DNA from: Tychonema litorale BBK16
GTDB lineage: Bacteria > Cyanobacteriota > Cyanobacteriia > Cyanobacteriales > Microcoleaceae
Assembly: GCF_021648855.1 (NCBI RefSeq)
Contig: NZ_JAKJHX010000022.1
Span: forward strand, 1 to 58,010
Reading direction: 5' to 3'
Length of the DNA: 58,010 nt
Shown here: in pieces, positions 2,070 to 18,958 of the stretch
How positions within the stretch are numbered: position 1 is the first letter of the stretch
Layout of the letters: each line of letters opens with the position of its first letter
Made by a program: the position numbers and the translations under genes
Notes under the pieces: model-generated
Seen by the model: the letters and a program-made list of their open reading frames with translations, nothing else
What the model was told of the DNA's origin: nothing
The model's database searches: none

Positions 2070-2340
2070 GATTACAACCTCGAATAGCAATTCGCCTGAT
2101 TTCCTTGAGTATCTCACCCTCTGAGTTTATACGGTGGCGAATGCTAGTAACTTTACAGACACTTTAGAGAACTTAGGTGTTTTATAAAGCTTTCGTAAAC
2201 TTATGGTTCGGAGAAACACTTAGCTTTACAGAATCTTTATAAAGTACACCTATTTATAAATTTTGTGTAAAATGTTGAGAATTAAGATAATCGCTGAGAC
2301 TAATTATGCTGCTGATATAGTCCCTCTTCTGTCATTCTGA

Positions 2341-2402
2341 GGATACGGCACTGCCGTATCCCACCGAAAATAATACTGTAGGGACACGACACTGTCGTGT
2401 CC
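2341..2402. repeat. Two REP-type palindromes in the 2118-2451 gap
   Basis: Copy 1 (2341-2361) has arms GGATACGGCA and TGCCGTATCC; copy 2 (2382-2402) has GGACACGACA and TGTCGTGTCC, each around a single central base. The arms differ at two positions but both stay fully paired, so the changes are compensatory. The rest of the 334-bp gap is AT-rich and shows no gene. Confidence 0.85.
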
Positions 2403-2451
2403 TAATTTGGGCCACTAACAATCCCGATGCTAACGGATTTGATATCAATTT

Positions 2452-3465
2452 CTATCCCTGAATAGCAACAAGCCGATCGCACTTTGAACTTTTGATATTT
2501 CCTTCAACCCTCAGCCAACTGTCGTCAGCTTTCTCTCCGTTAGCCCAAGCGATTAATGCCGCCGGAATATTTGCTCCTGCAATCTGAGAAAATGGGTATC
2601 CGCCACCAAAACGCGGGTTCAATTCTAACACGCACAAACCTTTTGAACCCACCATGACATCGCAGTCCAGGTTGCCGATATGACCCAAATTTTGGCCTAT
2701 TTTCTCACCGAGTTGTTTGATTTCTGCATTTTCTACTGTCACAGCGCGATCGGTTTCTCCCGCTCGCATGGTAAGCTTGCGCTTGATAAAAGTAGTGATG
2801 TATGAACCCTCTAAATCATTGATAATATCAAGACCGTGTTCTTGTCCAGTCAAGCGCTCTTGTATGAGAATACATCTTTCCGGATCGGATGAACTTACTT
2901 CTGCTAAGAATGACTTGCCGATCAGTTTTTTCACAAAGCGATAAGCTAATTCCAACTCTTCATCATCTTCGGGATATTCAATGCCAATTGATGCACTTCC
3001 CCAACGAGGTTTAACTACCAACGGAAAAGTTATTTCTCCTTTTGCGATCGCATCCCTTGCTTCCTCCAAAGAAAGATAAGTTTTTGGAGCAGAAATGCCC
3101 AGCTTTTGTAAAAATTCAAATGTCGCAAACTTGTCAAAACAAAGGTCAATCACTTCTGGAGATGAAACAACAGGAATCGTGCCTATTTCCAGAAAGCGAT
3201 CGCGTTGTCTTGCCAAGTAAGGTAATTCTAGATCATTAAGTGGTATGATTAATCTTACCTGCTTTTGCTGACAGATATCCAGCAATTTATCGAAGTAATC
3301 GCTGTGCTTTATAGGTGGCAACAAAAAACTTTCATCTGCTGCTTGTAATGCTGGAGCTTCGAGAGTAGCATCTCCAGCAAACACTTTTCCTTGATTTCCC
3401 AGTGCTTCTCGAAAGAATTGAACCAGGTAGTGGCGGCGTCCGGCACAAGTTAACATCACATTCAT
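2452..3465 (-). CDS. ATP-grasp domain carboxylate-amine ligase (CarB/PylC-like)
   Basis: A 337-aa ATP-grasp enzyme; the family activates a carboxylate as acyl-phosphate and joins it to an amine. The N-terminal pre-ATP-grasp Rossmann part begins MNVMLTCAGRRHYLVQF. The nucleotide-binding strand is FPLVVKPRWGSASIGIE, and the magnesium ligands lie in VLELNPRFGGGYP. It sits in the polysaccharide run between the sugar transferase and a PaaK-like ligase, with a 36-nt gap to the latter. A role in attaching an amino acid or acid to an amino sugar is inference; the substrate cannot be read from sequence. Confidence 0.85.
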   Translation of the reverse strand: MNVMLTCAGRRHYLVQFFREALGNQGKVFAGDATLEAPALQAADESFLLPPIKHSDYFDKLLDICQQKQVRLIIPLNDLELPYLARQRDRFLEIGTIPVVSSPEVIDLCFDKFATFEFLQKLGISAPKTYLSLEEARDAIAKGEITFPLVVKPRWGSASIGIEYPEDDEELELAYRFVKKLIGKSFLAEVSSSDPERCILIQERLTGQEHGLDIINDLEGSYITTFIKRKLTMRAGETDRAVTVENAEIKQLGEKIGQNLGHIGNLDCDVMVGSKGLCVLELNPRFGGGYPFSQIAGANIPAALIAWANGEKADDSWLRVEGNIKSSKCDRLVAIQG

Positions 3466-3501
3466 CTGTGTTACGCTCTTTTGAGTAGGGTATTTGTAAA
3501 A

Positions 3502-4839
3502 TTAGTTAGATACTGGTGAATCTTCTTTTGAAGGGTCGTACAAACTAACGATGTACTTTCTTTTGCCAGAATTCAACACTGGAATTTCGTCAACATAATC
3601 AATCTCAATTTGAGCATCAGCCCCCAATATCTGCTTGAGTTTCTCAATCACCGATGCTTCTTGTGAGAATGTCTCGTTGACACAAAGACGAAGGCGGTAA
3701 CGGGTTCTATCCTCCTGAATAAATTGAAACTGCTTCATCACACCTAACCTACCCAAAGCCTCAAACGTGCCATCAAATGCGAAGATAATCAACCGTCGTC
3801 CCGCAGTATCATATACCGTATCGACGCGACGCCCTTCTAAGGATTGAAGAATCGGAGTCGCAAACTGAGGGCTATCACTCGGAAGAATAGAGCCTATATC
3901 ACCAGTGTCATAGCGAATCATCGGCAGCGCATAGTTATAGAGATCCGTAACAACAATCCGTCCAGGAGTGCCTGGTGGTGTCGGTCGATCGCTATCAAAA
4001 TCAAGCGTTTCAAAAAAATAGCTAGCGGTATTGAGATGGAATTGATTAGAAGTAGGGCATTCATAAGCGAGTACGCCACACTCTTCGTTGGAGTATCTTG
4101 ACAACACCGGACAGTTAAAAGCCGTGCGGATGGTATCGCGCATATTTGGATAAAGTGGCTCTGAAATACACAGCACACCCTTCACTCCAAAATCTTCGGG
4201 GGTATCTCCTTGGGCGATAACATGACGAGCAAGGTCATTAATCACGGAGGGGTTTCCAATGAGGATTTCAATGTTCTTATCCTTTAGAAGTGTCAGGCGT
4301 TGTTCCTCGGAGGAGGCAAAGTCTAAGGTGTTCAGACTGAACTCAACCTTGTTTTTGATGAACCGTGAAACTGCATTTTCTCTATGTATTGAACCTGCTG
4401 CTACGACAAAGGCATATCGGGTACCCACATGATATCCAACAAGAGAATTAAAATAGATCACTTCTGCCAATACTCGTTGGCGCTTACTGGTATTCTGAAA
4501 TATCTGAAAAGGAGTTCCAGTCGAACCGCTAGTTTGCACTAACCTAAGTTTCTTGCCCTTGAAAATCTGGGACTCAAATTGTTCAAACGATTCCCTGATG
4601 ATGTTCTTGTTGACTACAGGAAAGTCTTGAATTCGACCAGAACCATCGTAGTTTTTATAATAATCAGTGGTTTGAACGGCATGGGTGAGGAGCGATTTAA
4701 TCTGCTGGGCTTGATGTTCAGCTAAAAGGGAGGAATCTGCTGATACCTGTTGAATATTTTGGAGGTGGGTGTGGATGGGTGCACCCTGGAGATAGTCTCG
4801 TCCCCAAAACAAAGATTTGCGTACATTGTTCATGATCAT
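3502..4839 (-). CDS. PaaK/CapK-like adenylate-forming enzyme
   Basis: A 445-aa member of the phenylacetate-CoA ligase / coenzyme F390 synthetase group, which activates carboxylic acids with ATP. The phosphate loop TSGSTGTPFQ and the acyl-adenylate region LPMIRYDTGDIG are intact. Related CapK-type proteins are regularly found in capsule and exopolysaccharide loci, where their substrate is mostly unknown. AGGAG lies 10 nt before the ATG at 4839. Its position next to an ATP-grasp ligase suggests the pair activates and transfers an acyl group onto the repeat unit; this is inferred. Confidence 0.85.
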   Translation of the reverse strand: MIMNNVRKSLFWGRDYLQGAPIHTHLQNIQQVSADSSLLAEHQAQQIKSLLTHAVQTTDYYKNYDGSGRIQDFPVVNKNIIRESFEQFESQIFKGKKLRLVQTSGSTGTPFQIFQNTSKRQRVLAEVIYFNSLVGYHVGTRYAFVVAAGSIHRENAVSRFIKNKVEFSLNTLDFASSEEQRLTLLKDKNIEILIGNPSVINDLARHVIAQGDTPEDFGVKGVLCISEPLYPNMRDTIRTAFNCPVLSRYSNEECGVLAYECPTSNQFHLNTASYFFETLDFDSDRPTPPGTPGRIVVTDLYNYALPMIRYDTGDIGSILPSDSPQFATPILQSLEGRRVDTVYDTAGRRLIIFAFDGTFEALGRLGVMKQFQFIQEDRTRYRLRLCVNETFSQEASVIEKLKQILGADAQIEIDYVDEIPVLNSGKRKYIVSLYDPSKEDSPVSN

Positions 4840-4928
4840 ATGGTTTTGACTCCTAATCTACAGACTTTTCTAACTGTTGCTTACGAAGTTCAGCAAAATT
4901 ACCCTCTGTGTTTGTACCAGTGTCAACA

Positions 4929-6068
4929 TCACTTTTGTACAGCTTCGGCATACAATTCTTCGTGCATTTTTACAATTTGTCCTACATCGCAAGTAGCCAT
5001 GCGATCGCGTCCCCGCTTGCCCATTTCTCGCACATCTTCAGGATGATCCAACATCCAAGCCATTGCCTGAGCAAATCCGTCTATATCCCCCACATCAAAT
5101 AGAAGGCCACAGCCGGATTCTAACAATTCTTGATTACCACGAATATTAGTAGCGATCACCGGAATTTCCAGCGACAAAGACTCCATAATACTTCTAGGCA
5201 ATCCCTCCTGTTCCGAAGCCAGCAAAGTCGCCACAGAAGCTCGCATTAGAGTCGCAACATCTCGGCGACTTCCGAGAAAATGCACCTGATTTTGCACACC
5301 CAAATCCGACGCCAATTGCTGCATTTCTGCGAACATCGGCCCATCTCCAGCAAAAACCAAATGAACATCAGGTCGAGCCAGTTTAGCAAATGCCGTTAAC
5401 ACATCCTGCGGGTGCTTGCGGGGAATGAATTCGATCGCGGATATAAAAAGTTGATTTTCCTCATTAAGCCCCATTTTCTGACGTACTTTTGCGACATCAG
5501 CTTCAGCAACAGCACGGGGACTGTAGCGATCGAGATCCACTCCAATTCCCGGCATATAGCGGACTCTTTCAGCAGGAAGAATTTTGTACCGTTTTGCTGC
5601 TGATTCATCCTCGTGATTAATCGTGACTAAATAATCAGTCCAAGGGCCCGCCAACTTTTCCAAATTTAGAAAAACAGAATTTTTTAACGGCTTACCTAGA
5701 GGATGGAAATGAAATCCGTGAGCCGTGTATATCACCTGAAATTTTTGCTGCTTTTTCAAATCTTTGAGGGCATATCTAGCAACAAAAGCAGCGACAGGCG
5801 TATGTACGTGAATTATATCGTATTTTTCTGTTTTGACAACCTCTCTAATCACTTGCGGAGCAGCCAAAAAATTTCTCGGATCTAGAGGATTACGCGACCA
5901 TTCTACATCCCAAACGCGATCGAATGCCTGCAAACATTCAGCATTTTCTGAAATTCCGCAAGCCATTGCATGAACCTTCCAGCCTTGTTCGCGGAAGTGA
6001 TGGGCAAAGGGTAGGAGAAAAGCGCGGATAGTTCCTGGAACGGTAGTGATAATTAGAAGGCTACTCAT
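4929..6068 (-). CDS. Glycosyltransferase, GT4 family (GT-B fold)
   Basis: A 379-aa retaining glycosyltransferase. The N-terminal acceptor domain has a Gly-rich start region and HVHTPVAAFVARY; the C-terminal donor domain shows EFIPRKHP, FAGDGPMFAEM and the EX7E nucleotide-sugar motif in EQEGLPRSIMESLSLE. It carries no transmembrane segment and is expected on the cytoplasmic face of the membrane. The preceding gene (6112-7299) is only 43 nt away in the same direction. Donor sugar and linkage cannot be deduced. Confidence 0.93.
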   Translation of the reverse strand: MSSLLIITTVPGTIRAFLLPFAHHFREQGWKVHAMACGISENAECLQAFDRVWDVEWSRNPLDPRNFLAAPQVIREVVKTEKYDIIHVHTPVAAFVARYALKDLKKQQKFQVIYTAHGFHFHPLGKPLKNSVFLNLEKLAGPWTDYLVTINHEDESAAKRYKILPAERVRYMPGIGVDLDRYSPRAVAEADVAKVRQKMGLNEENQLFISAIEFIPRKHPQDVLTAFAKLARPDVHLVFAGDGPMFAEMQQLASDLGVQNQVHFLGSRRDVATLMRASVATLLASEQEGLPRSIMESLSLEIPVIATNIRGNQELLESGCGLLFDVGDIDGFAQAMAWMLDHPEDVREMGKRGRDRMATCDVGQIVKMHEELYAEAVQK

Positions 6069-6111
6069 GAAACTTCATACCTCATTAAACCTGATCAAAA
6101 TTGAGACAGCC

Positions 6112-7299
6112 CTAGTTTTTTTGCTTCAACCAAGCTTCAGTCATCTCTCGCACGTAGCGGTAAAATTCATTCCGCTGTTTGCTAAGCACTTCATCTCGAT
6201 AGTCTTTGGCTTTCTCCAGGTTGCGGGCTGACATCCTAGTCATGCGATCGCGATCGGTTACAACTTCGCGGATTTTGTTTGCCAAAGCAACTGCATCACC
6301 AGGCGGCACCATATCTTCCGGCTGCAACAGTTCGGGAATGCCACCTACTGTAGAGCCAATACAAGGGAGCGATCGAGCCATCGCTTCCACCATCGCTCTA
6401 GGTAAACCTTCTTGATGAGAAGGAAGAACGAACAAATCGGCTAAATCCAATTGAGCAATCACTGCATCACCACTAGATAACTGACCGAGAAAAGATACAC
6501 GATCTCCCAAACTAAGAGCTTTAGCTTTGGCTTCCAATTCAGATCGATGTTTGCCATCTCCAATCATAGTTAATTTAATATCTAGTCCCTCTCGCACACA
6601 GAGCGAAAAGGCATCAATTAACACATCAGGGGCTTTATAAAGTTGAGCCATCGTACCGACAAAAACCAGATTAAAAGTTCCTCCTTGACGCGGTAGACGA
6701 GATGAAGAAACCAACGTGTACTCTGAAATATCTACATCCGATATACCTACAGAAAAGTTACCACAAGGGTATCGTTGCTGCAAAGCGTGTTTGGTCACAT
6801 AAGCGGCCGCCATTGCATCTCTACACTGCCGTCGCAAGTTTGGTGGAGATGACCAACGTAAGAAGGGGCGCAACGGATGTTTAATGGCACCGGGTGCAAA
6901 AACATCATAAGGGTCAGCGACAACTTCCACACTGTAAGGGTGGCCGGTTCGGAATAACATCGGTTGGATGCAGGAAGCAATTTGGGAGCCTAGACGAAAA
7001 ATCACCGCATCATCGGGACCAACAGAATTTCTTGCCACTTGGTTGACTTGTCTCGACTTGAGGAGATACTGCCAAGGACCAATGTAGTATGGTATGGCGG
7101 CAAAGGAAACTCCTTCCCCATTTGCCTCTTTCCAGTCAGAGGGTACATTAGGTACGTCTTGGACGCGGGCTACTACGCGCACGCTATCAAATACTTGTAA
7201 GTATCGCATCCAAAAGGAATAGGGGAAGGTGGTTTGCGTCCACACCTTTCCGTCTGGGGTGCGATCGAAACGATGTTCAAGAGTTACTACAACATTCAT
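6112..7299 (-). CDS. Glycosyltransferase, GT4 family
   Basis: A second GT-B glycosyltransferase (395 aa). The donor domain shows LVFVGTMAQLYKAPDVL, the GDG loop in MIGDGKHR, and the EX7E motif in HQEGLPRAMVEAMA. The frame is open to a TTG at 7371, but that extension is encoded by a palindrome and looks non-coding. The ATG at 7299 gives a natural N-terminus (MNVVVTLEHRFDRTP). No clear Shine-Dalgarno sequence precedes it. It is part of the same minus-strand polysaccharide run; sugar specificity is unknown. Confidence 0.9.
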   Translation of the reverse strand: MNVVVTLEHRFDRTPDGKVWTQTTFPYSFWMRYLQVFDSVRVVARVQDVPNVPSDWKEANGEGVSFAAIPYYIGPWQYLLKSRQVNQVARNSVGPDDAVIFRLGSQIASCIQPMLFRTGHPYSVEVVADPYDVFAPGAIKHPLRPFLRWSSPPNLRRQCRDAMAAAYVTKHALQQRYPCGNFSVGISDVDISEYTLVSSSRLPRQGGTFNLVFVGTMAQLYKAPDVLIDAFSLCVREGLDIKLTMIGDGKHRSELEAKAKALSLGDRVSFLGQLSSGDAVIAQLDLADLFVLPSHQEGLPRAMVEAMARSLPCIGSTVGGIPELLQPEDMVPPGDAVALANKIREVVTDRDRMTRMSARNLEKAKDYRDEVLSKQRNEFYRYVREMTEAWLKQKN

Positions 7300-7362
7300 A
7301 GTGGAAATAAAGTGATTAGAAGTGAAAAAAGTTTTGAGTTTTGAGTTAAAAGAAGGGATAAG

Positions 7363-7391
7363 GAGTTGCAAATTGAATCAATTTGCAACTC
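7363..7391. repeat. Perfect 14-bp inverted repeat between two EPS genes
   Basis: GAGTTGCAAATTGA and TCAATTTGCAACTC flank one base, giving a 29-bp perfect palindrome. It lies in the 104-nt gap between the glycosidase-like gene (stop at 7404) and the glycosyltransferase start at 7299. No T-run follows on the minus strand, so it resembles an mRNA-processing or stability hairpin, or a protein-binding site, more than a terminator. Confidence 0.75.
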
Positions 7392-7403
7392 ATCAATCTC
7401 AAA

Positions 7404-8576
7404 TTATCTTGTTGCTTGATAGACTTCAACATCCAAAGGTTTGAGAATACCAGATAGGCGATTGGCATTTAATACTAAATTAGTAGGACGATTGTCAAAT
7501 ACAGGTTTTATTTGACTAAAAATTTCCGGAATTGGAATCGATACAGGTTTCCTATCATAAGAACGGTTAACTATGACTATTAAAGCTTGATTTCGCTGTG
7601 TCCACATACCAGTAATTACCTTTTCTACTCCCCCATCAACTATATTTAATACCCCATTTAATACTGGGGAACTAATTGCCTTGATTTCCGGCACTAAAGT
7701 TTTCATTCCTACCCACAAATCTTGATGTGATGGTAAATGCCAATTTTTATCATGATAAGTGTAGTAGATAATTCCTTTCGCACCTGCTAAGAGCGCTTGA
7801 TATGTCATATTTCTTACTTCATCTAAGGTTGGTACGCGGATGGAATTTTTATTTTTTTTATGCCAAGCAAAAGCTTGTACGTTAGCATACATGGTTTTTC
7901 CATACTGCTTAACTACATCGCGGGCTAGAGAAATGCGATCATAGGTTAATGATATCTCATCATCTCCATTACCAATAGGATAAGATTGCATGGCAACTAC
8001 ATCAGCACAATTTCCAAATTGTTTGATTTTATCTGAATAACCACTGATATAAGTGATGTGATGTGGATCGGCTAATTTTGCTTGTTGATGAAATTTTAAC
8101 ACTTCCTGGGGAACTAGCTTGCCATTGTCAACATCATCAGCAATATTCCAACCTAAAACGGCAGGTTTTTGTTTAAAGGAATTGATCATATTGAGTAAGC
8201 CAATACCTTCTTCGCTCAAAACGTAAATGCCAAGACTATAAGCTTCGTTCAGGAATTTTTCGTAACTATTGACTTCGGTTGCCGAAGCGTGAATCGTGTT
8301 AAATCCAGCCGCTGCAATGTCGCGCATATCTTCGATCAAATCTTGTGCTGTTGATTCCCATGAAACGTGATAAAACCCAAAAGGAAAGAATGGTTTACCA
8401 TTAAGCATGGTGATGCCATTAACAATATTTACACTGTTAGTTAACGGTTGATTTTTACTTACTGCTTGAGAGAAGCAGGATGACTTATTGTTGGGTAAAA
8501 CCAGCATAATTGTCGCCAGTATTCCGACCGATATTAAAAGTATATATTTTTTATTCCAATTTTTTCGGTTGATCAT
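7404..8576 (-). CDS. Secreted TIM-barrel glycoside-hydrolase-like protein
   Basis: A 390-aa protein with an N-terminal signal or anchor segment (KKYILLISVGILATIMLVLP). The body resembles clan GH-A barrels: a GKPFFPFGFYHV entry strand, AAGFNTIHAS after the first helix, and VLGWNIADDVDNG at the strand where catalytic acids usually sit. A C-terminal region looks like a beta-sandwich. It starts inside the stop of the polymerase gene (ATGA overlap at 8573-8576), so translation is probably coupled. It may trim or release the polymer outside the cytoplasm. The catalytic residues were not identified with certainty, and the GH family is not assigned. Confidence 0.7.
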   Translation of the reverse strand: MINRKNWNKKYILLISVGILATIMLVLPNNKSSCFSQAVSKNQPLTNSVNIVNGITMLNGKPFFPFGFYHVSWESTAQDLIEDMRDIAAAGFNTIHASATEVNSYEKFLNEAYSLGIYVLSEEGIGLLNMINSFKQKPAVLGWNIADDVDNGKLVPQEVLKFHQQAKLADPHHITYISGYSDKIKQFGNCADVVAMQSYPIGNGDDEISLTYDRISLARDVVKQYGKTMYANVQAFAWHKKNKNSIRVPTLDEVRNMTYQALLAGAKGIIYYTYHDKNWHLPSHQDLWVGMKTLVPEIKAISSPVLNGVLNIVDGGVEKVITGMWTQRNQALIVIVNRSYDRKPVSIPIPEIFSQIKPVFDNRPTNLVLNANRLSGILKPLDVEVYQATR

Positions 8577-9937
8577 ATGTTTTCGCTTAAGCTTTTTGGG
8601 CTAGGTAAAGAATCTTCTATTAGATAAGGAGTTCGCAGGATAATTGCTACTGAACTCATATAAAGTCCGAGAAAATGACCAAAAGCAGGTTGTGGATAAA
8701 AAGTTTCTTGACTAAAAGCGGTAATTAAAAAGGTAATAGTCCCCCAAAAAAAAGGTTTCTCTTTTATTTCTGTTTTGTAAAGATAAAATAAAATTATGCT
8801 AAATAATACGCTAAATATGCACAAACCTATCAAACCAGTTTCGGAAGTAATTTGTAGATAAAGCATATGAGCATTATTTCCCCGATCAATCGCAGAGCCA
8901 AAACCATTCCCTACAAACCAGTTAACTTGATTTTCGTCTAATGCATTCAGGTGAGCAGCCCAAAGTTCGTCACGTCCACTTAGGTTTTCAGTTTTATTAG
9001 CTTGAAAGACCGTTAGTTGACGATCAATAATTGAACCTTCAATGGAATTCACCTCAATAGATTGAGACCCAAATGCAGATGCCAGCACAGGTAAAATCAA
9101 TGCTATATTAACAATACATAAAGCATAAATGGGTTTAGATGTCAAATATATAAATAGCAAAAAGAGCATGGCTCCAAATCCAGAACGAGATTCGCTGATA
9201 AAGACAGTTAGCGTAGAAATAACAAGCAAAATAGTATTAGATAAATCTTTTTTTTCATTGTTTCCTAAGTGCAGCCTCAAAATAAGAAGCATTGTTACTT
9301 GTGCTGCTACATAAGCATGATTGTAACCAACAAAACCTAAACCTTTAGTTCCTATTTTGCCAACACCTTCATAGAATTGCCAAGCTCCGATTTTAGGCAA
9401 ATGGGCGGTGATTAATGAAAGAGGTACTACACCAGCATAGGTCAAGAAAACTCCCAGGCAAACAAAAATTAATACACCATCAACAATTTGCCTCATTACC
9501 TGAAGTCGTGCTGCTGTTAATGGGATGCGACCAATTAACCAAAATAAACTAAAGTATTGCACTAAGCGATAAAGTTGGAAAGCCCCAAAGGGAGCGCCGT
9601 TGGCATTCTCATCAGCAGAAGCCAAGTAGCAAAGATAAGATTGGATGCACCCCAGAAAAATAATTATAAGAATCGAAAATATTTTTTGATTCGGAATAGA
9701 AAGGCGTGTAGTATATCGACGACTTTGGATAAAGGTGAAGACGAGGAGGAAAAATGCAAAGTCACAAAAACCAGGCCAAATAGCCCAGGGTCCTATAGGT
9801 AAAATGGGGACGGTGAAACTTTGGGAGAGCAAATAACAGCATAAAGCAAAAAACAACCATTTTGTGTGTTGTAACTGCGATGACGATATAGGCGTAAAGT
9901 TAGGTATAACAGATTTAGCTTGGGTTTTTGACTTCAT
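8573..9937 (-). CDS. O-antigen polymerase/ligase family protein (Wzy-like)
   Basis: A 454-aa integral membrane protein with about ten hydrophobic segments and one larger loop (about 265-330) containing GRDELWAAHLNAL and WFVGNGFGSAIDRGNNAHMLYLQ. That is the usual pattern of the Wzy_C / WaaL superfamily, with an Arg in the loop and a conserved HN..YLQ segment. It is expected to polymerise undecaprenyl-linked repeat units on the outer face of the membrane. It overlaps both neighbours by ATGA (8573-8576 and 9934-9937), which suggests coupled translation of glycosyltransferase, polymerase and glycosidase. Confidence 0.88.
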   Translation of the reverse strand: MKSKTQAKSVIPNFTPISSSQLQHTKWLFFALCCYLLSQSFTVPILPIGPWAIWPGFCDFAFFLLVFTFIQSRRYTTRLSIPNQKIFSILIIIFLGCIQSYLCYLASADENANGAPFGAFQLYRLVQYFSLFWLIGRIPLTAARLQVMRQIVDGVLIFVCLGVFLTYAGVVPLSLITAHLPKIGAWQFYEGVGKIGTKGLGFVGYNHAYVAAQVTMLLILRLHLGNNEKKDLSNTILLVISTLTVFISESRSGFGAMLFLLFIYLTSKPIYALCIVNIALILPVLASAFGSQSIEVNSIEGSIIDRQLTVFQANKTENLSGRDELWAAHLNALDENQVNWFVGNGFGSAIDRGNNAHMLYLQITSETGLIGLCIFSVLFSIILFYLYKTEIKEKPFFWGTITFLITAFSQETFYPQPAFGHFLGLYMSSVAIILRTPYLIEDSLPSPKSLSENI

Positions 9938-11088
9938 TGAATGATCTCTCCAGTGTAAAGTTCCTCCAATTGTTTAACGCTATTATGAATATTGAACGAA
10001 CTTTGCTCAATCAGTTTATAAGCTTCTGCTTGGGTAATTTTTGGTTTGGCTTTGTTAGTAGTTAGGATCGCATTAGACCATTCTGATGCAGTTTGGGCAA
10101 GGGAGATTCGTTGCAATAGAGGTTTTATAACATCTGCTTCTTCTGGGACTACATTTGAAAAAACACAGGGCAAGCCTGCTGCTTGTGCCTCGATTAAGAC
10201 TAAACCCAAACCTTCATAAAGAGATGGCAAGACGAATGTATCCATAGCCCCAAGCATCAGTCTGGGTACATCCGATCGCAGTCCTGCAAAGATGACATAT
10301 TTATCTAAGCCCATTTCGATCGATTTCTGCTTTATCTGGGGACGCAACGATCCATCACTCACAAGTAACAAGCGCATATTGGGTTGTTTTTGGGCAATCG
10401 CCGCTGCGACTTCTAGTAGAAATAAATGGTTTTTTTGTTCTTCAAATCTGCCGACGTGACCGACGACAAAGGCGTCGGCAGGGATGCCGAATTCAGCACG
10501 AACAGCAACAGAATCAACTATATCGCGAAATGGTATCAGATCTACGCCACAGTAAAGAATTTGCCAGCGCGAGTCAGTTTTCCAAGCTTGGTTGAACAAT
10601 ACTGTTCTTACTTGGCGGCTAGCTGACAAACCAAGTTTTGCATATCGATCGATTAACCATTTTGTTAGAGTTAGATACAAGCGCCGATGTAATCCTGCTT
10701 TGGCATCAATTACAGAGGTATCGTTGTGGCTGTGAGCAATTCGTACAGCCACCCCTGCTTGTTTCGCTAAATAGAGAACATAACCGCTAAAGTGATGGAC
10801 ATGACTGTGAACAATGTCATAGGGTCCATATTCGCCTAAAATTCGTTTAAAGTTGCGAGCGTACAACAAAGGTTTTGACGGATCGAGACACGGGATAATT
10901 TTGCTACCAAGAGCACGCACTTCGTCGTCGTAAGGACAGGGTTCAGTCGTATGAACCAAAAAGTCCATTTGAAAGCGATCGCGATCGATATGTCTCAAAA
11001 CGTGCATCAGCCAAGTCTCTATACCGCCCCGGTTCATGCCGCCAACGACGTGGAGAATTCGGATTGTTTGTCCATTAACTGATGCCAT
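9934..11088 (-). CDS. Glycosyltransferase, GT4/GT1 family (EpsF-like)
   Basis: A 384-aa GT-B glycosyltransferase. The N-terminus ILHVVGGMNRGGIETWLMHV is the typical acceptor-domain start of EpsF-like enzymes. HSHVHHFSGYVLYLAKQAG follows, and the donor domain has GHVGRFEEQKNH and the EX7E motif in LYEGLGLVLIEAQAAG. GGAGAG lies about 8 nt before the ATG at 11088. Its stop overlaps the start of the polymerase gene. Donor and acceptor are unknown. Confidence 0.93.
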   Translation of the reverse strand: MASVNGQTIRILHVVGGMNRGGIETWLMHVLRHIDRDRFQMDFLVHTTEPCPYDDEVRALGSKIIPCLDPSKPLLYARNFKRILGEYGPYDIVHSHVHHFSGYVLYLAKQAGVAVRIAHSHNDTSVIDAKAGLHRRLYLTLTKWLIDRYAKLGLSASRQVRTVLFNQAWKTDSRWQILYCGVDLIPFRDIVDSVAVRAEFGIPADAFVVGHVGRFEEQKNHLFLLEVAAAIAQKQPNMRLLLVSDGSLRPQIKQKSIEMGLDKYVIFAGLRSDVPRLMLGAMDTFVLPSLYEGLGLVLIEAQAAGLPCVFSNVVPEEADVIKPLLQRISLAQTASEWSNAILTTNKAKPKITQAEAYKLIEQSSFNIHNSVKQLEELYTGEIIQ

Positions 11089-11124
11089 ACTTTGTTCTCT
11101 CCAAGTTCCTAGAATAATTCAATT

Positions 11125-12096
11125 TCAACAAGCTCCTTTATAAAGTTTTATCAACTCCTTATCGGAAAGAATCGAATCACTTTTTCGCCCCATAAAATAA
11201 TACCCTGATGCAGCATCAAGAGTTCCTGCTTTGTCAATCAATAATTCATCAAAATATGTCAAATAAAAGGAGGTAAATCTTGCAAAAATCCCAAGAAAAA
11301 TTCTCAAAATTTTTGATTTAGTAAAACTTTTGAGAAAATAACTATAAGACCAAGCTAATGCCATCCCCGGTCCGCACGCAGCTCCACTCTCAATTTCTTC
11401 AAACTTTCTAAATAAGCGACGGTGTCCAAGATGAGTAAAACGAGTAAAGTCATAGCAACCTCCATGTACTTGCTGCATAAATGGAGTTTCGGCATAAACT
11501 AACCCATCTTTTTTTAAGACTCTATGAATTTCTTCTACACACTGATACGGATCGACCACATGTTCAAGAACTGCCTGTACAATTACACCATCAAATGAAT
11601 CATCTTTAAAGGGTATGCTATGTGCGTCTAAGATAACATCTGTCCTAGGACCAAATGAAACATCACTTTCAACTAATACAACCTCTGGATATTCCACAAC
11701 AACTTTCATTCCCTCGCCCAATATACTTCCACCCAGCACTAAAACCTTTGGTGAATTTGATTTAGTCAATAAAAGTTTCACAAAGTCTTGATAGTTATTC
11801 ACTGCTTTTACATTCCTACTTATGCCAGGAATTAATCGCTTTGTGATTTTTTTAAAAGGATTTTCGGGCGCTAAATCAAAATACATATTCCGACTACTTA
11901 AAAAGTCATCAATAGTAAATATGCTGGCATCCTCATCGATCAAAATTGGTATGCCATCTCTTACCGGGAATAACAAGTTACATTCCAATCTGTTACATTG
12001 GTATTGTTGGCTACCGACCGACTCTAAATTTCCTTTACATCTGGGACAGCAAAGTAGTGGTTGAATGAGGGCAGGTAGTTGTAGTTCAGATTGCAT
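11125..12096 (-). CDS. SAM-dependent methyltransferase (type 11) with N-terminal zinc-ribbon
   Basis: A 323-aa protein. The N-terminal part has a Trm112-like zinc ribbon (LLCCPRCKGNLESVGSQ, then a CNRLEC pair and FPVRDGIPILID). It is followed by a class I methyltransferase fold with KVLVLGGSILGEGM (motif I), VILDAHSIPFKDDSFDGVI and QAVLEHVVDP. The frame opens at 12177 inside the upstream flippase gene, but the ATG at 12096 has AGGGA about 9 nt upstream and lies clear of that gene, so it was chosen. It probably O-methylates a sugar of the repeat unit; that target is inferred. Confidence 0.85.
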   Translation of the reverse strand: MQSELQLPALIQPLLCCPRCKGNLESVGSQQYQCNRLECNLLFPVRDGIPILIDEDASIFTIDDFLSSRNMYFDLAPENPFKKITKRLIPGISRNVKAVNNYQDFVKLLLTKSNSPKVLVLGGSILGEGMKVVVEYPEVVLVESDVSFGPRTDVILDAHSIPFKDDSFDGVIVQAVLEHVVDPYQCVEEIHRVLKKDGLVYAETPFMQQVHGGCYDFTRFTHLGHRRLFRKFEEIESGAACGPGMALAWSYSYFLKSFTKSKILRIFLGIFARFTSFYLTYFDELLIDKAGTLDAASGYYFMGRKSDSILSDKELIKLYKGAC

Positions 12097-12127
12097 TGAT
12101 TTAATCCCTAAGTTATTTAGTACAAAG

Positions 12128-13453
12128 CTAAAAGAGTACACAGTTGTGTTTGTTGAGTCTTTGCAGTGCATAGACAATAACTCCCAAACTAAAAACTACT
12201 TGAACGATCGCCCCAACGATCAGCGCGATCGCCGCCCCTCGCACTCCCTGTGTTGGAATTAACCAGAAACAGGCGATCGCACAACTCCCCGTTACCAAAA
12301 CAAACAAAGGCATTTGCACCCGAAAGTATCTAGCCGCCGTCATCCCGTAACCCAAAAAGGAAGAAACATAACCCATACCCGCAGCTACCATCAGCCACGC
12401 GAACAAATCAGCTCGCTCAGCATACTCCGGCGTATAAAGTAAAGTTAGGATTGGTTTGCCGGCAACAACAGCGACAAAAACACCTCCTATACCTAACATC
12501 AAGCCCACCCCCACCAGCTTCAGCAAAAGTGTGCGAAAGGCAGTGCTATTTCCCGCCGCATAATATTTTGCCAGTCGTGGACTTGCAGACTCGGCAAGTG
12601 CACTCACAACCATACTTCCAACCACCATTAGGTAAGACATGGCAGCGAAAATACCCAATTCTCGTTCGCCCAAATACCGTTCGATAAAATAGCGAGGAAT
12701 ATTAGTATTTAGCGAAATCAGCATCATCACAAAGCCCAGAGGTAAAGCAAGCAAAACTAACTTCCTCAAGGTTTTTTGATGCCAGCGCGGATACAAGGAA
12801 TTCTGGCTGTTTTCAGGTAAAACATCGGCAACTAATAAATCTTCTTCCTGTTTCTGATGGGAAGAATTATTTAAAATTAATCTACCATTGCGAATGTCCC
12901 AGCCGAAGAGGACTAAACCCCACGCAATTGCTAATCCGATCGCTCCCCCTACCACACTCCCAGTTACGGAAACTCCGATCGCCAAAAGTAACAGCGATAA
13001 AGGGCCTTTAATCATCAGGGCGATCGCAATTCGATCCATCCGTTCATGTTGTTGGATCAGTCCGTTAAATACATCGGTGATCGACTCGAAGGCTTTTGCT
13101 AGCGCGATCGCCAAAATCACCAGTGAAGTCTCCAACCGATATCCAGCTTTCAGCGTAATTCCCGCAATTATCAACAGTGCTAAACCAGTTCCAATCAACC
13201 TCAAACCCAGATAATCACTGAAAACATAATCCCCTTTGGCATCCGTCGCTTGGATACCACGTAATTGCAGATTAGTAAACATGATCACTGGCGCTGTCAC
13301 TGCCAAACCCAAGGTAAATTGACCGACCATTTCAGGACTGCCCAATTTAGCAAGCACCACCAACATCCCCCACTGGGAAGCCGCATAAATGAGGTTGCCA
13401 GTGAAAGTCCAGGAAAAATTCCGGCGTAGTGTTAGTGGTTTCAATTGTTGCAT
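12128..13453 (-). CDS. Oligosaccharide flippase (Wzx / MATE-like)
   Basis: A 441-aa protein made almost wholly of hydrophobic helices (about 12), with the N-terminal pattern LRRNFSWTFTGNLIYAASQWG that marks polysaccharide transporters of the MOP superfamily. It is expected to flip undecaprenyl-linked repeat units across the cytoplasmic membrane. Hydrophilic residues about 205-220 form a cytoplasmic loop. It lies between the dehydratase-EAL gene (80 nt upstream) and the methyltransferase (31 nt downstream), all on the minus strand. Confidence 0.9.
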   Translation of the reverse strand: MQQLKPLTLRRNFSWTFTGNLIYAASQWGMLVVLAKLGSPEMVGQFTLGLAVTAPVIMFTNLQLRGIQATDAKGDYVFSDYLGLRLIGTGLALLIIAGITLKAGYRLETSLVILAIALAKAFESITDVFNGLIQQHERMDRIAIALMIKGPLSLLLLAIGVSVTGSVVGGAIGLAIAWGLVLFGWDIRNGRLILNNSSHQKQEEDLLVADVLPENSQNSLYPRWHQKTLRKLVLLALPLGFVMMLISLNTNIPRYFIERYLGERELGIFAAMSYLMVVGSMVVSALAESASPRLAKYYAAGNSTAFRTLLLKLVGVGLMLGIGGVFVAVVAGKPILTLLYTPEYAERADLFAWLMVAAGMGYVSSFLGYGMTAARYFRVQMPLFVLVTGSCAIACFWLIPTQGVRGAAIALIVGAIVQVVFSLGVIVYALQRLNKHNCVLF

Positions 13454-13533: not shown

Positions 13534-16323
13534 TTAACCATTAACAGCCATCCCTCCAATCAATTTTTCCACCTTATAGCACTCTACAGGTTTTGAGAAA
13601 AAGTATCCCTGACCATAGAGGCACTTCAGAGCTTTGAGCTGAGCTATTTGCCATCTCGTTTCCACTCCTGTCGCAATCATTCCCATACCTAACTCCTGAG
13701 TTATGGCAATGATTTTGTTGAGAATTTCTAAGTTGGGTTTGCTAGCATCCAGCCCGCTGACTAGAGAACAATCTAACTTCAAACTGTCGAATTTTCCATA
13801 CTTCAGTCGGGTCAATTGATAGAGTTGAGTTAATGATACATCACTCAGACCACAATGGTCAATTTGTACTTGCAACCCTAAAGTTTTGAGTTGGACAAAT
13901 ACAGATCCAGCCAACTCACAATTTTGCGTTACAACATCTTCAGGAATTTCTAACCTCAAGCTAGAAGCATCAAGATTTGTTTCTTTCAATATTTGGGCGA
14001 CTGTCTTGATTAAGTTAGGGTGGAACAACTGTTTGCTAGTCAAATTCACGCTGACGGTTAAAGGAGAGTTAAGACGAAATTGCGACTGCCAAATCTGCAT
14101 CTGGCTCGAAGCTTGCCATAGTACCCATTCACCAATGGGAACAATTAAGCCAGTTTCTTCTGCCGCTGGTAGGAATTCGTCCGGCCAAAGCAAACCTTGA
14201 GTTGGGTGTTGCCAGCGCAACAGCGCTTCAAAGCTACTAATTTTATTAGTTTCCAGGCAGACGATCGGCTGATAGTGAATCCGAAGCTCCTCATTGGCCA
14301 GAGCCACTCGCAAATCATTCTCTAACTGCACAGATGCTGCACTACTAATCTTTGTCACAGCGATTGTTTCTTTGGCTGTATTTGCCTGCAAATTGGTTGT
14401 TGAATATCCTGATATGTATTCAGGTACTAACTGCTGTAGTATTGAGACTATTAAATTGGCATCATTGCGATCGCCTGCTTGACAAAGAGCCTCTACTTCC
14501 AGCTCAATATTTTCTTTCACTAGGCGGCTGGCATTCCCCAAACTCAGAATTTTTTCGTGTTTAGTTTTGTTGTATTTTTCTCCGGGAATGAACAGTTCTT
14601 CAAACAGTTTTTCTCCAGGCCGCAGCCCTGTGAAGGCGATTTCAATGTCTTTGCCGACTTCATATCCTGAAAGCCGAATCAAATCGTTTGCCAAATCAAC
14701 AATTCTGACAGCTTCCCCCATTTCTAGCATGAAAACTTCCCCGCCACCACCGATGACTGCTGCCTGCAAAACCAGTTGAACTGCTTCGGGAATAGTCATG
14801 AAATAGCGACAGATATCTGGATGGGTAATTGTGATCGGCCCGCCCTCGGCAATTTGTCGTTTGAAAGTGGGTACGACGCTACCGCGACTGCCAAGAACAT
14901 TGCCGAAACGCACCACAACAAAGGGGTTCTCGCTTTTTTTTGCTGCTTGCAATACCAGCATTTCGGCAACTCTTTTGCTGGCTCCCATAATGCTAGTTGG
15001 ATTCACCGCTTTGTCGGTGGAAATCATCACAAAGTTTTGTACTTTGTATTTCAATGCCATCTCCAACAGATTTTTCGTTCCCCGCACGTTGTTGGTAATC
15101 GCTTCTGGCGGGTTTAATTCCATCATCGGTACGTGTTTGTGAGCGGCCGCATGAAAAATCATGTCTGGTCTGGTTATTTCAAACACATAGTCTAAGCGAT
15201 CGAGCAAACGAATATCGGCGATACAAGCTGTAATGCGAGTAATATCTGTTTTACTATTGTTTGTCTTTTTAATTTCTGACAGAATTTTTACGAGCTCTTG
15301 TTGAATGTTGAATACAGAATTTTCTCCGTGTCCGACAATGATGATTTCCGCAGGATCACACTTTAATATTTGCCGACAAAGTTCACTGCCGATCGATCCG
15401 CCCGCACCGGTAATTAGAATTTTCTTGCCCCCAATCAATTCCAAGACTTTCTGGATATCTGTTTGGATGGGGGCGCGACGAAGCAAGTCCTCAATTTGTA
15501 CTTCTCTAAGGCTACCTAAACTGACGCGACCATTGATGATTTCATTGAGGCCGGGAAGGGTGCTGGTTGGCACTCCAATTGACTGGCAAATTTCAACGAT
15601 CGCCCTAATCTCATTTCCCGGTGCTGAGGGTATGGCAATCATGACTTTGCCGATATTTAGCGATCGCACTACGTCCGGAATATTATAACGATTGCCTACT
15701 ACGATCAGTTTGCGAATCTGCTTGGTGATTTTTTTGGGGTCATCGTCAATGAAAGCGATGGGATCGAGTCCTACCTCTGGACTCCTCTGCATTGTTTGCA
15801 TCAGAGACGTGCCTGCACTGCCCGCACCGACTATCAAGACGCGATCGCGTTGCTGAACTTTCCACGGTTTTTGGTTCCATCTTTCGAGGGCTGGAATGCT
15901 AAAACGAATCGCCGCCACTAACAAAAAGCTGATCATCGCGTCTAGTAGCGGCAGCGATCGCGGTAGATTGGCGATCGGCGAATTATTTAGCTGGTAAAGT
16001 TGTTGGAACAAGATGATTTGCATCGGTAGCGAGATACCTATCAGCATCGCTATTTGTGCCATTTCTTCCAGACCCGCATACTGCCAGTAACGCTTGTAGA
16101 GGCCACCTGCATAAAACAGTATAATTTTGACTGTTAAAAATAATACTGTAACTACCGCTAGACCGTGTCGGTAGGGAGCCAGAGTTGATGTATCATCTAA
16201 ACGAATTGCCAGGGCCAATGATGGTGCGATCGTAAAACAAATTGCATCGATTATCAAAAAGTGACGAGTTCTTAATTCCGCCAAGACTTTGCTGATTTTT
16301 TTTATGTTCCCATTTATATTCAT
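13534..16323 (-). CDS. FlaA1/CapD-type nucleoside-sugar 4,6-dehydratase fused to a degenerate EAL domain
   Basis: A 929-aa fusion. Residues about 20-145 form four membrane helices; GAGSAG (166-171) begins the first Rossmann domain and TGAGGSIG (305-312) the NAD-binding SDR domain. In the catalytic region, Ser435/Thr436, Met446 and Lys450 match the Ser-Met-Lys triad of large WbpM/PglF-type dehydratases. These enzymes make UDP-4-keto-6-deoxy sugars. Residues 666-929 are an added EAL domain: EAL (699-701), Asn760, Glu792, Lys849 and QGYFFSKP remain. The DDFGTG loop is DHCGLS (822-827), AEGVE is ATGVE, and about 6 residues are inserted before Lys849. The domain is thus probably a c-di-GMP sensor rather than an active phosphodiesterase. 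AGGAT precedes the ATG. Confidence 0.92.
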   Translation of the reverse strand: MNINGNIKKISKVLAELRTRHFLIIDAICFTIAPSLALAIRLDDTSTLAPYRHGLAVVTVLFLTVKIILFYAGGLYKRYWQYAGLEEMAQIAMLIGISLPMQIILFQQLYQLNNSPIANLPRSLPLLDAMISFLLVAAIRFSIPALERWNQKPWKVQQRDRVLIVGAGSAGTSLMQTMQRSPEVGLDPIAFIDDDPKKITKQIRKLIVVGNRYNIPDVVRSLNIGKVMIAIPSAPGNEIRAIVEICQSIGVPTSTLPGLNEIINGRVSLGSLREVQIEDLLRRAPIQTDIQKVLELIGGKKILITGAGGSIGSELCRQILKCDPAEIIIVGHGENSVFNIQQELVKILSEIKKTNNSKTDITRITACIADIRLLDRLDYVFEITRPDMIFHAAAHKHVPMMELNPPEAITNNVRGTKNLLEMALKYKVQNFVMISTDKAVNPTSIMGASKRVAEMLVLQAAKKSENPFVVVRFGNVLGSRGSVVPTFKRQIAEGGPITITHPDICRYFMTIPEAVQLVLQAAVIGGGGEVFMLEMGEAVRIVDLANDLIRLSGYEVGKDIEIAFTGLRPGEKLFEELFIPGEKYNKTKHEKILSLGNASRLVKENIELEVEALCQAGDRNDANLIVSILQQLVPEYISGYSTTNLQANTAKETIAVTKISSAASVQLENDLRVALANEELRIHYQPIVCLETNKISSFEALLRWQHPTQGLLWPDEFLPAAEETGLIVPIGEWVLWQASSQMQIWQSQFRLNSPLTVSVNLTSKQLFHPNLIKTVAQILKETNLDASSLRLEIPEDVVTQNCELAGSVFVQLKTLGLQVQIDHCGLSDVSLTQLYQLTRLKYGKFDSLKLDCSLVSGLDASKPNLEILNKIIAITQELGMGMIATGVETRWQIAQLKALKCLYGQGYFFSKPVECYKVEKLIGGMAVNG

Positions 16324-16750: not shown

Positions 16751-18958
16751 ATGGAATCAACTGAAACTGGTATTGGAGTTCAGGAATACTGGCAGATTCT
16801 GAAGCGCAGATGGCTACCAGCCGTAGCTGTATTTGCGTCGGTTCTGGTACTCACCACCTACAGCACACTTAAGGAAAAACCAGTTTATGAAGCAGAAGGC
16901 AAGCTGTTATTTAAGAAAAGCACTCCTGGCTCTGCTTTAACAGAATTGGGCAAAGAAATTGGACAGTTAACTCCGGCTGCCGAGCAAAGTAATCCTCTGA
17001 CTACCGAGATCGAACTAATTCGTTCTGTCGAAAATATTGAAAAAACTATCAATAGACTTCATCTCAAGGATGAAAAAAGCAATCAGATTAAAACAAAAGA
17101 TTTTTTGAAGAAATTGACGGTAGCTACGATTCGGGGAGCTGATATTCTCACGGTTTCATATAAAGATAAGAACCCGAAGATAGCAGCAGATGTCGTAAAG
17201 ACTATGATGGATTTTTATATAGATAATAATCAGAAGGTTAATCGTCTAGAAGCGGTGTCTGTCCGACAGTTTATTGAAAGAAAACTGCCTCATTCAGACA
17301 AAAATATGCGAAAAGCAGCGGTAGAATTGAGCAAATTCAAAGAAGATAATAAAATTGTAAATCTTGAAGAAGAAGCCAAATCAGCAGTGACAGTAATGGC
17401 GGGACTAGAAAGTCAAATTGACCAAGCTCAGTCTGAGTTTCTCAAGGCAACTGCGAAGTCGAAAGCATTTGAAAATGAACTACGAATGAATCCCCAGCAA
17501 GCATTAGCTGCCAGCACTCTCAGCCAATCTAGCGCTGTGCAGGAAGCTCTGAAAGAATACAAACAGACAGAGCGTCTGTTGGCAATTGAGCAAAATCGTT
17601 ATGTAGAAACTTCGGAGTTCATAGTTAGGCTAAAAAGTAATAAAGCTACTATGAAAGGTTTGTTGGACAAACAGATACAACAAGTTTTAGGTGGTGAAAA
17701 ACCGTTGCCAAATCAAGCCTTACAGATAGGAGAAGTGAAGCCAAAACTGATCGAAGAATTTATTAAGGTAGATGTGGAACGTCAGGGTTTGGCTCAGCGA
17801 GTGACTATTTTATCAAATGCTTTAGCTGGCTATAAGGAACGGGTGAAAGTTTTGCCTAAGCTAGAGAAGGAAAAGCGGCAACTAGAAAGAAAACTCCAAG
17901 AGTCTGAAGCGGATTATGAAGAGTTGCAGAAAAAACTTCAGCAAATTCGGATTACTGAAAATCAGCAAGTTGGGAATGCTAGAATTGTCCAAAGACCTAG
18001 TGTTCCTGAAGAACCGGTGGCTTCTCGTAAGTCTTTATTGCTGGTTTCGGGTATTTTGCTGGGAACGTTGCTCGGTATTGTCGCGGCGATAGTTTTGGAG
18101 TCTCAAGATAAGTCTGTGAAAACTATTGAAGAGGCGAGGGAATTGTTTGGCTTTACTTTGTTGGGGGTGATTCCTTTCCATAGAAAGCCTGAAAAAAATC
18201 CTCGCCGCAATTCCTGGCGGCTCAAGTCTGCTGAGCAGGATTTAGAGTTATCTCCTCGACAGATTGTGGTTAGGGATACTCCTCATACTTCGAGCAGTGC
18301 TGCTTATCGAATGCTTCAGGCAAATTTGAGGTTTTTGAGTTCTGATAAAGAGCTGAAAGTGATTGTGGTTAGTAGTTCGCTACCGCAAGAGGGTAAGTCT
18401 ACTGTGTCGGCTAATTTGGCTGTGGCTATAGCTCAATTGGGACGGAAGGTTTTGCTGGTAGATGCGGATATGCACTGTCCTGTTCAACATGGGATTTGGG
18501 AACTTCCGAATCAGGTTGGTTTGAGTAATGTGATTGTGGGACAGGCTGAGTTGAAAAGTGCGATCGCCCAAGTGATGGATAATTTAGATGTGCTGACTTG
18601 TGGGGTGATTCCGCCTAATCCGATGGCTTTGTTGGATTCGCAACGGATTACTTCATTGATTAAGCAATTTTCGGCTAGTTATGATGCCGTGATTATTGAT
18701 GCTCCTTCTTTGAATGTTGCTGCTGATGCTCTGATTTTGGGAAATAAGGCTGATGGGATTTTATTGGTTGTGCGGCCGGGAGTTCTGAATTCTGGTACTG
18801 TGGCTTTTGCGAAGGAGCTTTTGAAGAAATCAAGTCAGCACGTTTTGGGTTTGGTTGTGAATGGAGTAAGTGCTAAAAATGAACCCCACAGTCATTACTA
18901 TTTTACGAATGAATCTTATGCTCAAGAGCAGAGTGCTAGTGTCAATCAGAAAATCTAG
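16751..18958 (+). CDS. Polysaccharide co-polymerase / BY-type tyrosine autokinase (Wzz-Wzc family)
   Basis: A 735-aa inner-membrane protein controlling polymer length and export. The N-terminal Wzz domain begins GVQEYWQILKRRW with the first membrane helix (about 20-37), then a long coiled-coil periplasmic region. The second helix (about 425-447) reads LLLVSGILLGTLLGIVAAIV. The cytoplasmic kinase has Walker A PQEGKST (about 547), Walker A' VLLVDADMHCP and Walker B AVIIDAPS. The C-terminal tail has only three tyrosines (SHYYFTNESY), fewer than in typical Wzc. GGAG lies 8 nt before the ATG. It is divergent from the rest of the locus. Confidence 0.95.
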   Translation: MESTETGIGVQEYWQILKRRWLPAVAVFASVLVLTTYSTLKEKPVYEAEGKLLFKKSTPGSALTELGKEIGQLTPAAEQSNPLTTEIELIRSVENIEKTINRLHLKDEKSNQIKTKDFLKKLTVATIRGADILTVSYKDKNPKIAADVVKTMMDFYIDNNQKVNRLEAVSVRQFIERKLPHSDKNMRKAAVELSKFKEDNKIVNLEEEAKSAVTVMAGLESQIDQAQSEFLKATAKSKAFENELRMNPQQALAASTLSQSSAVQEALKEYKQTERLLAIEQNRYVETSEFIVRLKSNKATMKGLLDKQIQQVLGGEKPLPNQALQIGEVKPKLIEEFIKVDVERQGLAQRVTILSNALAGYKERVKVLPKLEKEKRQLERKLQESEADYEELQKKLQQIRITENQQVGNARIVQRPSVPEEPVASRKSLLLVSGILLGTLLGIVAAIVLESQDKSVKTIEEARELFGFTLLGVIPFHRKPEKNPRRNSWRLKSAEQDLELSPRQIVVRDTPHTSSSAAYRMLQANLRFLSSDKELKVIVVSSSLPQEGKSTVSANLAVAIAQLGRKVLLVDADMHCPVQHGIWELPNQVGLSNVIVGQAELKSAIAQVMDNLDVLTCGVIPPNPMALLDSQRITSLIKQFSASYDAVIIDAPSLNVAADALILGNKADGILLVVRPGVLNSGTVAFAKELLKKSSQHVLGLVVNGVSAKNEPHSHYYFTNESYAQEQSASVNQKI

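Follow-up and report, generated by a model that had tools for sequence, protein, structure and literature searches.

Can an enzyme that makes a nucleotide sugar for a polysaccharide itself be the receptor for cyclic diguanosine monophosphate (c-di-GMP)? The question is raised by a gene in a 58,010-nucleotide stretch of Tychonema litorale BBK16 (RefSeq assembly GCF_021648855.1, contig NZ_JAKJHX010000022.1, positions 1 to 58,010; hereafter the window), in which a membrane-bound sugar 4,6-dehydratase runs on into a degenerate EAL domain. A first-pass annotation, made from the DNA letters alone, had reported an uninterrupted frame of 929 codons at this position, and had proposed that the dehydratase making the first committed sugar is also the receptor. 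The frame and its coordinates are correct; the gene lies on the minus strand, starts with ATG and contains no internal stop (Table 1). Both halves lie in the one chain, with PF13727, PF02719 and PF00563 all matched by Pfam, in the order membrane helices, Rossmann domain, PglF-type uridine diphosphate (UDP)-sugar 4,6-dehydratase, variable linker and EAL. No GGDEF domain is present among the Pfam matches of the 929-residue protein. The membrane part displays four hydropathy peaks, in 19-residue windows starting at residues 21-24, 51-58, 88-91 and 123-129. The reading that we favour, with somewhat more confidence than doubt, is that of a PglF-type membrane dehydratase whose non-catalytic, c-di-GMP-receptor EAL domain would tune synthesis of the initiating sugar. 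Its architecture, conservation pattern, selection, predicted fold and gene cluster are the solid parts of this reading; binding, and the direction and effect of the control, are what we infer from them.

The fusion defines a protein family. A search with residues 600-929 gave 102 proteins with both PF02719 and PF00563 among the best 120 of 7097 matching proteins, and a second search from a distant member, with its best 120 matches listed, extended the combined set to 168 fusion entries, which are cluster representatives among the matches listed (of which three pairs share 99.5% identity or more, and some are partial). Among 39 genomes near the window's own, which is included in the counts, a full-length fusion is found in 11: ten of the 24 in the genus, and one in another family. 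The first-pass annotation had raised two ways in which its proposal could fail at this level, a sequencing error joining two genes and absence of the fusion from all close relatives. An assembly or sequencing join is ruled out by the 168 entries with the same domain order and by the full-length frames in the genus, and the latter also dispose of the second concern. Wherever the source of an entry names the organism, the host is cyanobacterial. Named carriers include Microcoleus, Oscillatoria nigro-viridis PCC 7112, Phormidium, Aerosakkonemataceae, Leptolyngbyaceae, Gloeocapsa PCC 7428 and Gloeocapsopsis, as well as Stanieria PCC 7437, Moorena, Xenococcaceae, Merismopedia, Pleurocapsa and Chondrocystis.

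The dehydratase has the sequence hallmarks of the PglF/WbpM-type membrane enzymes, namely GxxGxxG, T/S-D-K and M-xxx-K motifs, N-terminal membrane helices and a PF13727 Rossmann domain. The catalytic triad proposed in the earlier annotation is present as S435, M446 and K450, and in the alignment these three residues, together with G306, G309, G312, D437 and K438, are invariant in all 168 fusions; T436, which aligns with PglF T395, is Thr in 163 and Ser in five. PglF is the closest solved relative. Taken jointly with the rest of the favoured explanation, and with the same slight preponderance of confidence, this points to a PglF-type enzyme with UDP-GlcNAc as predicted substrate. The fusion is the sole strong PF02719 match in its genome (395 bits; next match, 87).

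The EAL domain retains the EAL motif, N760, E792, K849 and QGY, while DDFGTG has become DHCGLS and AEGVE has become ATGVE, as first described. The two residues affected, equivalent to D296 and E352 of RocR, are lost throughout the family: the first position is N in 88 fusions, H in 60, Q in 15, R in four and K in one, with Asp in none, and the second is T in 113, A in 42, V in five, I, S and D in two each, M in one and missing in one, with Glu in none. Q685, E699 and R703 are kept in all 168 fusions, and L701 (165), L702 (164), N760 (165), E792 (167), D822 (166), K849 (150), E888 (167), Q905 (167) and G906 (167) in nearly all, the remaining row for E888 and Q905 being truncated; 11 of these 12 ligand or first-metal positions are thus kept in at least 164 fusions, with K849 as the exception. 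The positions were mapped with the FimX contacts given in the available part of one report (PMC7288161), alignments to solved EAL structures, and RocR numbering. Mean entropy over the 12 columns is 0.12 bits, against 1.55 over all 251 columns, and none of 20,000 random sets was as low; the columns were chosen from known contacts and are conserved in EAL domains generally, so that the point lies in their being kept while two others were lost. Of the two Glu of the ExxE motif, the fusions retain the second but not the first. In TBD1265, the E703A change at the first Glu of this motif abolished activity and a change at E706 was without effect, according to the portion of that report available (PMC12943098). 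The EAL fold and the first-metal E, N, E and D of active enzymes are accompanied by loss of the second Asp of DDFGTG and the first Glu of EGVE, the sequence pattern of a non-catalytic receptor in which catalytic residues are lost and nucleotide-binding residues kept.

Ordinary EAL domains behave differently. Both D296 and E352 are present in 28 of the 29 control EALs taken from outside the fusions, and in these 28 the D295-K316 distance is 21 positions; one of them lacks the Gln of YQP and one the second Glu of ExxE. The equivalent distance is 25 to 28 in 167 of the fusions, the last one being truncated, and the 27 positions between D822 and K849 in the window's protein bear out the insertion before Lys849 noted in the first-pass annotation. 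The 29th control, P0060, is a hybrid of a truncated glycosyltransferase and a fusion-type EAL, and is placed among the fusions in the tree. In the nearest free relative seen, at 52-54% identity, the IDDFGTGYSSL and AEGVE motifs are intact; this and the controls favour fusion of an active phosphodiesterase and one shared loss of both residues.

Selection on the EAL domain was estimated from Nei-Gojobori counts made with our own script on the 28 pairs of eight close orthologues. The mean ratio of nonsynonymous to synonymous substitution rates (dN/dS) is 0.382 in the membrane part, 0.161 in the Rossmann-dehydratase part, 0.833 in the 24-residue linker and 0.182 in the EAL domain, as averages over non-independent pairs and, for the linker, over a short stretch. 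Purifying selection on the EAL domain is about as strong as on the enzyme part. A relic EAL domain is rejected on these ratios together with the conserved residue pattern, which is one and the same across 35 divergent fusion representatives.

In the mechanism that we envisage, the EAL domain would derive from an active phosphodiesterase; its first-metal and nucleotide-binding residues were retained, whereas two second-metal or catalytic ligands, Asp296 and Glu352 in RocR numbering, disappeared. Because these ligands are lost and the binding residues kept, c-di-GMP would be expected to be bound but not cut. Binding would alter the pairing of EAL domains through the rebuilt, lengthened loop-6 region, and the altered pairing would act through the linker to change dehydratase activity or assembly. 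Dehydratase output would in turn determine the supply of a UDP-4-keto-6-deoxy sugar, which the aminotransferase and PglC-like transferase of the cluster would convert to the lipid-linked starter of a Wzx/Wzy polysaccharide. LapD offers a precedent, as its degenerate EAL domain converts binding into dimerisation via a switch loop, as described in the accessible text (PMC3032553), and the altered loop 6 and longer pre-K849 stretch of the fusion sit where this switch loop corresponds. By analogy with other systems, c-di-GMP would most likely switch the enzyme on. The genome encodes 16 GGDEF domains over the cut-off, so the signal should be available; no c-di-GMP riboswitch exceeds Rfam thresholds in the window, where the sole match is a HEARO RNA. 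The proposal that the dehydratase itself is the receptor holds as regards a real and selected fusion, universal losses, kept ligand residues and a position at the head of a polysaccharide cluster, while binding, the dimer switch, the sign and existence of an effect on activity, and the exact sugar belong to its conjectural side.

In a class-wide sample of 388 genomes, the dehydratase is matched at 1e-90 in 102, and a full-length fusion is confirmed in at least seven (G000, G074, G273, G270, G111, G178 and G237), with an eighth split over two frames in G287; as at most two candidates were scored per genome at E 1e-90, these counts are floors. The fusions sit in families f1, f17, f44 and f47, with f15 as a further family from the scan of near genomes. 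Among close orthologues (46-62% identity), those that are not fused have frames of about 650-750 residues, and a more distant dehydratase group (about 36-45%) is unfused in the five loci read and in G387. In this sample fused orthologues are outnumbered by unfused ones, which marks the EAL domain as an add-on; 16 of the 24 unfused rows belong to two families (12 to f18, four to f47). No EAL remnant was found by tblastn (E 0.01) beside unfused orthologues in 27 loci (24 genes, mostly with 1.5-kb flanks), while all four positive-control loci were matched. In a scan for the fusion outside the cyanobacteria, no match among the best 80 loci, which are almost all non-cyanobacterial, extends beyond residue 658, although an independent fusion may exist elsewhere. 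Three candidate long forms (L080, L104 and a 1210-residue frame of G387) were rejected, because their dehydratase frames stop at the normal point and carry no C-terminal domain. In a Paenibacillus contig (L105, 1-2209, plus strand) and a Clostridiales contig (L142, 1-990, plus strand), an EAL frame of its own is encoded in the upstream flank of an unfused dehydratase of this type, possibly by chance. Two metagenome proteins, P0060 (525 residues) and P0187 (423 residues), join the N-terminal part of a truncated glycosyltransferase to a fusion-type EAL, apparently at the same joint, and are either a recombined gene or a recurrent chimera.

Trees were built from 42 of the 168 fusion proteins, hand-picked for spread, and five loci. 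In the EAL tree, which includes seven other EALs of the window's own genome (those on C40 and C3 were left out), a branch with 100/100 support parts the 28 ordinary EALs from all 47 fusion EALs. This split, and the fact that both losses are common to all fusions, favour a single origin and disfavour several independent fusions. A quick dehydratase tree of 75 rows, made without L010-L019 and L024, groups all 47 fusion rows in a single supported clade that also includes 18 unfused rows; a careful tree of 72 rows, additionally without three outgroup rows, has five state changes and a weak backbone and does not recover that clade. We read the history as one gain followed by several losses of the EAL domain, of which the tree is no proof. 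It may be, and we hold this with belief and doubt in equal measure, that c-di-GMP gates the entry of sugar into the Wzx/Wzy pathway at its first step, the EAL domain having been fused once, its cutting site lost and its binding kept in scattered cyanobacterial families, with the enzyme freed wherever the domain was lost.

The fusion gene heads a Wzx/Wzy-type polysaccharide cluster, as annotation of the window and the loci of relatives both indicate. Sixteen fusion loci were compared (15 relatives and the window), 14 of them with sufficient upstream sequence. Wzc is divergent in 12 of these 14, the exceptions being L067 and L069, and in eight of the 16 the gene that follows the fusion matches the Wzx of the window. 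In all four extended loci, phosphoglycosyltransferase and DegT genes occur near the far end of the cluster and share 86-93% identity with their counterparts in the window. Across the cluster (97-13453) and loci L058-L069 and L156-L159, the Wzc/fusion end and the phosphoglycosyltransferase/aminotransferase far end are conserved; the glycosyltransferase genes in the middle differ from strain to strain. In L069 the neighbours of the fusion are DegT, PglD-like and PglC-like genes, of which two are encoded on the opposite strand; no PglD-like gene was seen in the other 21 loci compared, and the contig of the window breaks off at the aminotransferase gene. For this aminotransferase the best solved relatives, 1o61 and 4ztc, are structures that we take to be PglE. 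Because the best solved relatives of the three proteins are thus PglF, presumed PglE (1o61) and PglC, the starter sugar is probably of the bacillosamine type. The earlier description of an enzyme of the first committed sugar is refined accordingly: the enzyme is closest to PglF, and its pathway neighbours point to a bacillosamine-type initiating sugar.

Table 1. The dehydratase-EAL fusion gene, its parts and its neighbours in the window.
Feature	Position	Strand	Basis
Fusion gene, 929 aa, membrane PglF/WbpM-type UDP-sugar 4,6-dehydratase + degenerate EAL	13534..16323	-	Open reading frame, Pfam, model
Residues 1-155, membrane part	15859..16323	-	Hydropathy and long helices in model
Residues 129-252, PF13727 CoA_binding_3 (Rossmann)	15568..15939	-	Pfam
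Residues 302-594, PF02719 dehydratase, 392 bits	14542..15420	-	Pfam
Residues 641-664, linker	14332..14403	-	Low model confidence, mean dN/dS 0.83
Residues 669-912, PF00563 degenerate EAL, 198 bits (cut-off 31)	13588..14319	-	Pfam
H823 codon (= RocR D296)	13855..13857	-	Alignment of 168 fusions, Asp in none
T885 codon (= RocR E352)	13669..13671	-	Alignment of 168 fusions, Glu in none, one truncated there
D822-K849, 4 to 7 residues longer than ordinary EALs in 167/168 fusions	13777..13860	-	
Wzc-type chain-length/autokinase protein, divergent from fusion gene	16751..18958	+	
Wzx-type flippase (PF01943), next downstream of fusion gene	12128..13453	-	
Methyltransferase (PF08241)	11125..12177	-	
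Glycosyltransferase (PF00534)	9934..11088	-	
Wzy_C polymerase/ligase (PF04932)	8573..9937	-	
390-aa open reading frame, no Pfam/NCBIfam match at cut-offs used	7404..8576	-	
Glycosyltransferase (PF13692)	6112..7371	-	
Glycosyltransferase (PF00534)	4929..6068	-	
AMP-dependent CoA ligase-like, below NCBIfam cut-off	3502..4839	-	
ATP-grasp protein	2452..3465	-	
Bac_transf initiating phosphoglycosyltransferase; best solved relative di-N-acetylbacillosamine-1-phosphate transferase (PglC)	1359..2117	-	
DegT sugar aminotransferase; best solved relatives 1o61, 4ztc	97..1233	-	

Several observations weigh against the receptor reading. N760 and K849 are not absolute, Asp occurs at position 885 in two fusions, and the roles given to RocR-numbered residues, other than E352 and E355, are those of general background. 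The structure model places the domains unreliably (predicted template modelling score 0.55; linker block means 30-36), with predicted local distance difference test values below 50 at residues 640-661, and hence supports no contact between EAL and dehydratase. A full-length match is absent from 14 of the 24 genus genomes, some of which are incomplete assemblies, and in the 388-genome sample 24 unfused orthologues were read against seven confirmed full-length fusions. Since these genus genomes lack a full-length match and the dehydratase occurs without an EAL domain in several lineages, EAL control would be optional for the enzyme. The glycosyltransferase hybrids P0060 and P0187, in turn, mean that the EAL domain is not tied to the dehydratase without exception. 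Some of these points lend themselves to an account in which the EAL domain binds c-di-GMP but recruits or times a partner in the cluster, be it Wzc, Wzx, the PglC-like transferase or a local diguanylate cyclase, with the dehydratase as a mere membrane anchor. The divergent Wzc and adjacent Wzx of many loci, the fast-evolving linker, the model without a reliable interdomain contact and the hybrids are all compatible with it; yet among the matches listed the fusion-type EAL is joined to the dehydratase, with P0060 as the exception, and never to Wzc or Wzx, and we regard partner recruitment as unlikely.

Other accounts concern the pocket itself. YdiV-type EALs are dimerisation or protein-binding modules, and the EAL domain might have become one by losing nucleotide binding too; loss of both residues, a loop 6 rewritten across the fusions and the longer stretch before Lys849 agree with this, but Q685, E699, R703, E888 and Q905 should drift if nothing were bound, and their near-complete conservation makes a YdiV-like module rather improbable. 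That the domain is still a slow or one-metal phosphodiesterase, lowering c-di-GMP beside the polysaccharide machinery, is suggested by the mostly kept first-metal residues E699, N760, E792 and D822 and Lys849, and by the acidic Asp at 885 in two fusions. The catalytic Glu is nevertheless found in none of the 168, and its replacement abolished activity in the available account of TBD1265 (PMC12943098), so that residual cutting is very improbable. The rebuilt second-metal site (823 mostly N or H, 885 T or A) could have shifted preference to a different ligand that exerts feedback control, for instance pGpG or a UDP-sugar end product; against this, E888 and Q905, taken as guanine-side residues, are kept in all but one truncated row, and we give the idea scant credence. 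A functionless passenger, for which the many orthologues lacking the EAL domain might speak, is strongly disfavoured, to the point of being scarcely credible, by a dN/dS close to that of the enzyme part and the single residue pattern of the divergent representatives.

The closest known systems to the fusion include the membrane WbpM/CapD group and PglF, the Campylobacter UDP-GlcNAc 4,6-dehydratase (PDB 5bju-5bjy), which lacks an EAL domain. LapD and FimX are non-catalytic EAL receptors for c-di-GMP, but with GGDEF partners, absent from the fusion, and with a protease-binding domain or a pilus machine as output in place of a sugar enzyme; LapD has KVL in place of EAL, in the text available to us, whereas the fusion keeps EAL intact and has lost different residues. 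As far as known, direct c-di-GMP control of polysaccharides acts mostly at synthases and exporters. BcsA, Alg44, PelD, NfrB and BgsA resemble the fusion in having a receptor domain in or on the machinery, which in BcsA and Alg44 is PilZ, and in them c-di-GMP acts at the polymerising or exporting step. The fusion differs from these in bringing an EAL receptor to the nucleotide-sugar step of a Wzx/Wzy-type cluster. NfrB is described as a glycosyltransferase fused to MshEN in the accessible part of one report (PMC8669469). GlgX of Streptomyces breaks down glycogen and is not known to have an EAL domain. As a carbohydrate enzyme, GlgX requires bound c-di-GMP for activity, according to the text available (PMC9530166). 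Within the same phylum as the fusion, the available part of a 2023 review gives CdgR and Tll0007 as c-di-GMP receptors (PMC10519070), acting in cell-size control and as a PilZ cellulose synthase, respectively. The Anabaena study of 16 c-di-GMP genes does not contain the word 'dehydratase' in the main text as available (PMC13075795), consistent with an unfused orthologue in Nostoc (L076). No dehydratase-EAL fusion is described in the accessible portions of the open-access literature searched, in line with the first-pass annotation, although an automatic database label, 'FlaA1/EpsC-like NDP-sugar epimerase/EAL domain-containing protein', exists. The pieces are known; their combination, as sequence comparison supports, appears to be a degenerate EAL receptor with a new output.

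Elsewhere in the window, the HEARO RNA (129.7 bits, 48193-48417, plus strand), a type described as HNH endonuclease-associated, is followed downstream by a 465-residue open reading frame (48622-50019, plus strand). A Type ISP restriction-modification protein of 1054 residues (24378-27542, minus strand; PF18135, PF22240 and PF02384) is also present, as are two Uma2-family putative nuclease genes (27585-28253 and 30337-30882, both plus strand) with a GTPase gene (MMR_HSR1 and DUF697 matches) between them.

If the dehydratase-EAL fusion is indeed a c-di-GMP receptor, c-di-GMP would control precursor supply for a Wzx/Wzy polymer, and a route by which light or cell-state signals reach the formation of slime, sheaths and mats in cyanobacteria would become open to direct test. 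Lineages that are related but differ in whether they carry the EAL domain would provide natural comparisons, and the carriers include named, sequenced strains.

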